A DNA stretch of 64,000 bases from Bacteriovorax sp. (lineage in GTDB: Bacteria; Bdellovibrionota; Bacteriovoracia; Bacteriovoracales; Bacteriovoracaceae), in NCBI GenBank assembly GCA_014377485.1, contig JACMPM010000132.1, forward strand, positions 62,001-126,000, read 5' to 3'. This document shows, piece by piece, positions 52,901 through 54,612 of this stretch; position 1 is the first letter of the stretch; every line of letters begins with the position of its first letter. A model generated the notes under the pieces. It was not told the DNA's origin and did no database searches. It saw only the letters and a program-made list of their open reading frames with translations. The position numbers and the translations under genes were made by a program.

Positions 52901-53419
52901 ATGAGACTTACATCTAAAGGACGTTACGCAGTTAGAGCAATGTTAGACCTTACCAGCCATTCAAATGGTAATCCGGTAAGACTACAAGAAATCTCAACAA
53001 GACAAAACATCAGTTTGCACTACCTTGAGCAACTTTTCAGAAAGCTAAGAAATGGCCAAGCTGTAAAGTCGGTTCGTGGACCAGGCGGTGGTTATGTTCT
53101 TGCGAGAAACATGGATCAAATAACAATCAAAGACGTACTAGACTGTGTTGGTGAAAACATCAATCCAGCTAGAGACATCATTGGATCAGAAGCGGAAGCT
53201 GCGAATTCACTAGAATTCCATCTTTCGAAAAACTACTTCATGAACCTCGGTATTATTATGAAGGAATACTTAGCAACGACTTCTCTTGGCGATCTTGTTA
53301 GAAAGTCAAAAGAAACTGAAATTGAAGCTGGAATTGGTCAAAACAATTCTGAAGCTCATGCTCAGTCTGGGATTATGACTTCTTCGATTAGAAATCCAAT
53401 CGGAGAGATCAATCAGTAA
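52901..53419 (+). CDS. Rrf2-family transcriptional regulator (IscR-like, cluster Cys absent)
   Basis: MRLTSKGRYAVRAMLDLTSHSNGNPVRLQEISTRQNISLHYLEQLFRKLRNGQAVKSVRGPGGGYVLAR. Confidence 0.93.
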   Translation: MRLTSKGRYAVRAMLDLTSHSNGNPVRLQEISTRQNISLHYLEQLFRKLRNGQAVKSVRGPGGGYVLARNMDQITIKDVLDCVGENINPARDIIGSEAEAANSLEFHLSKNYFMNLGIIMKEYLATTSLGDLVRKSKETEIEAGIGQNNSEAHAQSGIMTSSIRNPIGEINQ

Positions 53420-54578
53420 TCGTTTCTATTTTGATTATAATGCAACATCCCCGCTCTCGAAGAAAGTCATAGAGTTTCTTCGAAGCGGGGATTTTTTATT
53501 TGGAAATCCTGCTTCACTTCATCAAACTGGAAAAAAATCTCGTAAACATATCAACGAGACCACTGATTATTTATTTCAGACATTTTCTCTAGACCCAAAA
53601 GAGTTTCATCTTTTTTATCACTCCGGAGCTACCGAGGGAATTAATACCTTTTTTAAAGGTGTGGCCCTAAAATATTTTAAGGAAAAAAAAGCTGTCAGTT
53701 TTTTCTTTTCAACTGTCGATCACGCTTGTGTCGTTCAATTAAAAGAAGACTTGGAAGCGTTTGGGCATAATGTTTTCTATTTTAATGTAAATCACGATGG
53801 AATATTCAACACAGAAGAATTAATTGGTAAAATTAATCATGAAGAACGCGCAGGCCACGAAACATTCGTAAACTTTACCTATATAAATAATGAAACCGGT
53901 ATTGTTTGGCCACTTTCACAGGCCTTGAGGATAAAAGAAGAAACCAATTCTTTTGTCCATGTGGATGCAGTTCAGTTGGTCGGAAAAATCGCTAACTGGA
54001 ACTATCTTTCTTCAAAATTAGACGGGTATACTTTTTCTGGTCATAAGTTTGGTGCACTTAAAGGAATCGGATTTTCGTTTTTTAAAAAAGACATGAAATT
54101 TTCTCCCTTGCTAGTTGGTGGCAATCAACAACTCGGACTTAGGGCCGGAACAGAAAATGCCATTGGTATTTATTCTTTAAAACTTGCTTTGGAAGATATT
54201 AATGAACAATTTTCTGCGACAGAACTCCTTGAAGCTAAAAATGAGATTGAATCAAAATTAATTAATCTGATTGGCGCAAAAGGTGAAGTCGTAGCACTTC
54301 ATTCGCCGCTGAGAAATCTCAACACTATTTTCTTGGTTTTACACGGTCAAAAAGCAGAAATCTTAAGTGCTAAATTTGATCTTCAAGGCGTAGATCTCTC
54401 AACAGGGTCAGCTTGCTCGTCTGGTATTATTAAAGAAAATCGTATTCTCATGAGTATGGGGTATAGCTTTGATGATTCTCGTTCGTCTCTTCGCTTTTCT
54501 TTTTCACCTTTGATGAAAAAATCAGAGGCGCAAAAATATTTTGAAAAAATAGAAAGTGTTTTAAAAGGTATTCTCTAA
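53412..54578 (+). CDS. Cysteine desulfurase (IscS/NifS family), non-canonical start likely
   Basis: Open frame upstream of the track start encodes RFYFDYNATSPLSKKVIEFLRSGDFLFGNPASLHQTGKKSRKHINE ... FYHSGATEGINTFF; PLP Lys in SGHKFGALKG; catalytic Cys in STGSACSSG. Start placed tentatively at ATC 53412. Confidence 0.88.
   Translation: MSNRFYFDYNATSPLSKKVIEFLRSGDFLFGNPASLHQTGKKSRKHINETTDYLFQTFSLDPKEFHLFYHSGATEGINTFFKGVALKYFKEKKAVSFFFSTVDHACVVQLKEDLEAFGHNVFYFNVNHDGIFNTEELIGKINHEERAGHETFVNFTYINNETGIVWPLSQALRIKEETNSFVHVDAVQLVGKIANWNYLSSKLDGYTFSGHKFGALKGIGFSFFKKDMKFSPLLVGGNQQLGLRAGTENAIGIYSLKLALEDINEQFSATELLEAKNEIESKLINLIGAKGEVVALHSPLRNLNTIFLVLHGQKAEILSAKFDLQGVDLSTGSACSSGIIKENRILMSMGYSFDDSRSSLRFSFSPLMKKSEAQKYFEKIESVLKGIL
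53447..53501 (+). terminator. Intrinsic-terminator-like hairpin inside the 5' end of the cysteine desulfurase ORF
   Basis: ATCCCCGCTCTCGAAGAAA (53447-53465) pairs with TTTCTTCGAAGCGGGGAT (53475-53492), one bulged C, 9-nt loop, followed by TTTTTATTT. Confidence 0.75.
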
Positions 54579-54594
54579 AAAATTCCATAAAAAA

Positions 54595-54612
54595 GGGGAT
54601 GTGTACATCCCC
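54595..54612 (-). terminator. Rho-independent terminator for the BI-1/YccA gene
   Basis: Minus strand GGGGATG-TACA-CATCCCC then TTTTTTATGG. Confidence 0.75.

Follow-up and report, generated by a model that had tools for sequence, protein, structure and literature searches.

Why does a hairpin with the features of an intrinsic terminator occupy the first codons of a cysteine desulfurase gene? The question arises at a locus of a 3.95-Mb draft genome from the Bacteriovorax group of predatory bacteria (Bdellovibrionota, Bacteriovoracales), where the desulfurase gene lies directly 3′ of a gene for an Rrf2-type regulator. The window, i.e. the whole stretch of DNA that was analysed, comprises 64,000 nt, and the parts of the locus are:

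52901-53419, + strand: rrf2, encoding an IscR/CymR-like Rrf2 regulator of 172 aa without IscR's three cluster-ligand cysteines; stop codon at 53417-53419
53402-53407, + strand: Shine-Dalgarno-like GGAGAG within the 3′ end of rrf2, read from the sequence
53412-53414, + strand: putative AUC start of the desulfurase, suggested by nine genomes; overlaps the end of rrf2 in the +1 frame
53412-54578, + strand: cysteine desulfurase (NifS/IscS-like class V aminotransferase; Pfam Aminotran_5), 388 aa if the ATC is the start
53420-53446, + strand: 27-nt spacer that separates the hairpin from the rrf2 stop; equally long in 47 of the hairpin-bearing genomes, among which it is never below 24 nt
53447-53465, + strand: 5′ arm of the hairpin, with a bulged C at 53456; also encodes part of ATSPLSKK
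53466-53474, + strand: apical loop of 9 nt, to which the minimum free energy (MFE) fold adds two pairs
53475-53492, + strand: 3′ arm of the hairpin, supported by sequence, fold and covariation
53493-53501, + strand: U-tract; encodes part of DFLF, with wobble positions U-enriched in orthologues

The regulator scored 138 bits against the IscR model TIGR02010, below the cut-off of 207.55, and none of 94 Rrf2 proteins has three cysteines in the region of IscR's cluster ligands. Their C-terminal tail, IRxxxGE[IVM]NQ-stop, is nearly invariant in most of the 94. At its far end, the desulfurase gene converges with a BI-1-like gene, and an ordinary terminator-like hairpin (54595-54612) separates the two.

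The hairpin is selected as RNA

Direct reading of the sequence gave a 5′ arm of ATCCCCGCT-C-TCGAAGAAA (53447-53465), a loop of GTCATAGAG (53466-53474) and a 3′ arm of TTTCTTCGAAGCGGGGAT (53475-53492), followed by TTTTTATTT at 53493-53501. This is precisely the 18-bp stem with a single bulged C, 9-nt loop and U-tract of the original prediction, which had also placed the hairpin correctly within the N-terminal codons of the desulfurase (frame FDYNATSPLSKKVIEFLRSGDFLFGNPASLHQTG); its estimate of about 30 nt from the Rrf2 stop codon (53417-53419) to the stem compares with the 27 nt found. A stable, G+C-rich hairpin with a U-tract directly after the stem has the hallmarks of an intrinsic terminator. 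Folding of 53437-53511 yielded an MFE of -31.0 kcal/mol, whereas dinucleotide shuffles averaged -14.0 (sd 2.8), which corresponds to z -6.1 (0/200). When both strands of the 64 kb were scanned for hairpins followed by a T-rich stretch, this one was the most stable at -28.9, the runner-up reaching -19.9.

The hairpin lies in a conserved coding stretch and might on that ground be a chance result of codon constraint. Orthologues were gathered from whole genomes and GTDB contigs, leaving 98 after deduplication at 92% identity, and synonymous codons were reshuffled in each gene with that gene's own codon usage. With the peptide thus held constant, the MFE in the window was -31.0 vs. -10.9 (z -7.0), and the median z over the 98 orthologues was -4.4, with 90% below -2 and the hairpin at the same place across the family. 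The hairpin is therefore not a by-product of the peptide. Together with the covariation and the parsimony count described below, these shuffles refute a chance origin, to which we give practically no credence.

A 69-nt region could be aligned free of gaps in 91 genomes, and a structure of 16 pairs was scored on it. Paired cells amounted to 87.7% vs. 69.9% in shuffled alignments, and both sides of a pair had changed in 276 cells vs. 108. The covariation score was 0.495, compared with 0.182 for shuffles (0/500) and 0.086-0.185 when the structure was slid along the alignment; the shuffle control keeps the relatedness of the genomes, and part of it is removed by the slide control and by a parsimony count on a tree inferred from the remaining protein sequence, which gave ∼99 changes from one Watson-Crick pair to another over the main stem. 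The pair of columns 15 and 48 alone occurs in all four Watson-Crick types (GC 32, UA 28, AU 18, CG 8). Wobble bases can change together because the register of the stem matches the third codon positions of one arm with those of the other. A short apical helix is present in 59-88 of the 91 orthologues, depending on the pair; the loop sequence is not conserved among orthologues, and the stem sequence varies freely while pairing is kept. Compensatory changes in orthologous stems, the evidence by which the original prediction proposed to be judged, are thus abundant, and the stem is conserved well beyond what codon conservation explains. Within the stem, G-U pairs outnumber A-C mismatches (60 vs. 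18), so that the RNA of the + strand is the selected one. A terminator for the opposite strand was rejected on the same count, and there is no T-run on that side.

Selection extends to the U-tract, in a more diffuse form. Pooled over the 91 genomes, U occurred 195 times at the wobble position of one of the three tract codons vs. 156.5 expected (z 5.6), a signal significant only in this pooled test, as the U-score of individual genes did not exceed the synonymous expectation (mean p 0.41). Phenylalanine in the tract is encoded by TTT in 122 of 132 cases vs. 78% elsewhere in these genes (p 7e-6). The tracts are often interrupted (e.g. GAUUUGCUUUUUG), which counts against reading the element as a terminator. 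Two genomes, L021 (2536-2604, - strand) and L155 (1039-1107, - strand), have a very stable stem with almost no U-tract; they stand as exceptions to the terminator reading. The hairpin itself is real, conserved and selected as RNA.

Position, distribution and replacement of the hairpin

A covariance model of the element found a single copy in the window's own genome, at the rrf2-desulfurase locus, and matches in 74 of 291 genomes of the phylum, one copy each, all in the window's family. No Rfam family scored above its gathering threshold; the best chance match over the hairpin had an E-value of 2.2 (18.7 bits vs. 97). A literature search for Bacteriovorax and Rrf2 together, covering chiefly papers that need no subscription, returned no paper. 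The element is previously uncatalogued, and its kind is familiar.

The genomes in which the two genes have moved apart are informative about its role. In L049, L059, L107 and L066 the rrf2-desulfurase gap measures 199, 142, 114 and 83 nt respectively; in all four, a canonical intrinsic terminator lies in the intergenic DNA (e.g. AAAAACCCCTTCGTAAGAAGGGGTTTTTTTT; GCCCCTCGATGAGGGGCTTTTTTTTT in L059) and the embedded stem has decayed. In L049, a long and almost perfect inverted repeat (GGTACGTGGTACTTTTTCAG...CTGAAAAAGTACCACGTACC) lies between the two genes in addition to the terminator. An automatic tally, in which L059 (its fold is non-homologous), L096 (borderline z despite an intact stem) and probably L030 (a weak match) are mis-scored, assigned the embedded hairpin only to 88 genomes, none of which has an intergenic terminator, both elements to one (L059), an intergenic terminator only to four, and neither to five, L096 included. 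Such a complementary pattern is what would be expected if the embedded hairpin is the terminator of rrf2, an argument that rests on four clear genomes. Where gaps of 77-91 nt were found to contain no intergenic terminator (L025, L077, L085), the embedded hairpin is kept; it is absent from L063 and L081, which have no rrf2 within 500 nt upstream. In L092 and L176, a codon deletion in the desulfurase N-terminus breaks the old register, and a new hairpin has arisen, followed by 7-8 T.

We consider it likely, on the strength of these sequence comparisons, that the hairpin and U-tract are the intrinsic (Rho-independent) terminator of rrf2, displaced into the next open reading frame, where it would act as an operon attenuator. 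The desulfurase frame runs through the stem, which begins 27 nt beyond the rrf2 stop codon. In E. coli, a ribosome at the stop codon represses terminators placed nearer, termination being maximal beyond about 27-30 nt, and terminators are functional when placed within the first 100 bp of a coding sequence (PMC4824070). The 27-nt spacer agrees with the spacing for maximal termination in that study; the link between spacing and ribosome clearance is drawn by analogy with this E. coli measurement. By the same analogy, at distances below about 25-27 nt from the stop codon the terminating ribosome would block a terminator. As the rrf2 and desulfurase genes abut or overlap, the earliest ribosome-free site for a terminator would therefore fall within the desulfurase frame, i.e. 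in its first 15-30 codons, and the DNA at the hairpin is under a double constraint, as protein and as RNA. Some polymerases would read through to yield a bicistronic mRNA, and this partial readthrough would keep the desulfurase level below that of Rrf2; we infer termination, its efficiency and its effect on the protein ratio from the patterns described. A point against this reading is the cost, still to be accounted for, of terminated transcripts that would include the start of the desulfurase but lack a stop codon for it.

If rrf2 is indeed terminated here, the family would provide a clear-cut example from nature of an intrinsic terminator maintained in the codons of the next gene, family-wide, through compensatory and largely synonymous changes. 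Its position would be explained by the need to lie beyond the reach of a ribosome on the preceding stop codon, a rule that can be tested in compact genomes. Predicted terminators within the starts of open reading frames should, on this evidence, not be dismissed as false, and the natural variants across the family offer material for measuring the trade-off between coding constraint and termination strength.

Translation of the desulfurase and alternative roles of the hairpin

The start of the desulfurase bears on whether ribosomes could influence the hairpin. In the window, the stretch of the desulfurase frame from the nearest in-frame stop codon on the 5′ side to the conserved N-terminus is devoid of ATG, GTG and TTG. 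Nine genomes, eight of them closely related to that of the window, lack these codons near the start, and all nine carry ATC at a distance of 21 nt ahead of the codon for the conserved Asp. The AUC at 53412-53414, behind GGAGAG, is thus the likely start in the window, as judged from these genomes. Most genomes have a TTG or GTG start overlapping the end of rrf2. The two frames are most often offset by +1, with an identical 13-nt gap in 47 hairpin-bearing genomes. Programmed frameshifting (+1) that would join rrf2 to the desulfurase was rejected, given the TTG/GTG starts in most genomes and, in nine of the ten without them, the in-frame ATC at the same position. A short open reading frame from the ATG at 53440 was also discarded; inspected by eye in several orthologues, it is not conserved.

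The original prediction had further proposed that attenuation is coupled to translation, with ribosomes on the first desulfurase codons preventing hairpin formation and thereby setting the Rrf2-to-desulfurase ratio. The evidence of selection upholds its first element, a terminator-like attenuator that would set this ratio; relief by ribosomes found no such backing, its E. coli analogue showing an effect of ∼10%. In the coupled form, ribosomes starting the desulfurase would occupy the 5′ arm and thereby permit readthrough by polymerase; initiation would then control the gene's own transcription. This would be a layer added to a terminator and does not wholly exclude the terminator reading; we regard it as possible, at odds clearly short of even. 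The weak AUC, GUG or UUG start, located 35 nt 5′ of the stem and overlapping rrf2 in most genomes, suits such a role. So does the rarity of ATG starts, which occur in 3 of 87 hairpin-bearing genomes (all with gaps of at least 77 nt) vs. 7 of 11 hairpin-less ones (p 2.5e-6), an association confounded by gene spacing and relatedness; it may equally reflect the cost of initiating on transcripts without a stop codon. Evidence against coupling comes from E. coli: in a construct whose terminator lay 30 bp past the second start and 48 bp past the first stop, translation of the second open reading frame reduced termination by only ∼10%, a small loss attributed to the ribosome not yet having caught up with RNA polymerase (PMC4824070). 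Coupling could still occur, because pausing of RNA polymerase could synchronise ribosome and polymerase, as in pyrBI. Visual inspection brought up neither a conserved leader peptide nor a conserved antiterminator; a single candidate antiterminator pairing, with the end of rrf2, was spotted in this way in the window, and close relatives lack it. An extended version, in which the weak non-AUG start senses a cellular state (initiation capacity, or Fe-S-dependent tRNA modification for the FYFDYN codons), gates polymerase and so replaces the Fe-S sensing lost by the cysteine-less Rrf2, strikes us as improbable.

Two further roles come into consideration. As an mRNA-decay barrier, the hairpin would keep 3′-5′ exonucleases out of the rrf2 portion once a bicistronic mRNA has been processed. 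The same pair of gene families shows differential mRNA stability in E. coli (PMC8300815), and L021 and L155 retain a stem without a U-tract, as this role would allow. However, hairpins that protect from decay inside operons are stable hairpins without a U-tract (PMC5927463), and here the tract is present and selected; moreover, the intergenic replacements are textbook terminators. We therefore hold a decay barrier to be unlikely. Binding of a regulatory protein or small RNA, with control over translation of the desulfurase, could account for the conservation of the element across the whole family, but the loop is not conserved, the stem sequence is free to change as long as it pairs, and there is one copy per genome with no Rfam match, which makes such a binding site very improbable. 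Collectively, spacing and evolutionary replacement favour the terminator of rrf2 itself over a dedicated ribosome sensor, as far as sequence comparison can tell.

Comparison with known systems

Attenuators that combine a terminator with translation are familiar from the pyrBI and pyrE (rph) operons of E. coli, where terminator action depends on the distance of the translating ribosome; the terminator overlaps or follows the upstream open reading frame and responds to UTP. At the frd terminator/ampC attenuator, a single hairpin terminates the preceding unit and attenuates the gene that follows. The Bacteriovorax element would likewise serve two genes; unlike it, the frd/ampC hairpin lies outside the ampC coding sequence. 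The likeness of the Bacteriovorax element to pyrBI and pyrE would lie in the terminator and the ribosome distance, the UTP response being a feature of pyrBI and pyrE (pyrBI is also discussed in PMC4824070).

In the E. coli iscRSUA operon, RyhB triggers decay of the iscSUA mRNA and the iscR part is spared (Desnoyers 2009, as cited in PMC8300815). The outcome resembles the one proposed here in that mRNA of the IscR-family gene outlives that of the downstream desulfurase; in the account given in PMC8300815, however, the E. coli case is driven by an sRNA and RNase E and involves no terminator. Gene ratios within operons can be set by partial intrinsic terminators, e.g. those in ABC transporter operons of cellulolytic Clostridia, in which a stem and U-tract lie between co-directional genes and the downstream gene is expected to be lower (PMC9045158); here, in contrast, the element lies within the downstream coding sequence and co-evolves with its codons. 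The nearest parallel in layout is construct W48 with lambda tR2, whose distances (48 bp/30 bp) are nearly the same and which terminates efficiently (PMC4824070). W48 was engineered, whereas the element of the Bacteriovorax group is natural and family-wide.
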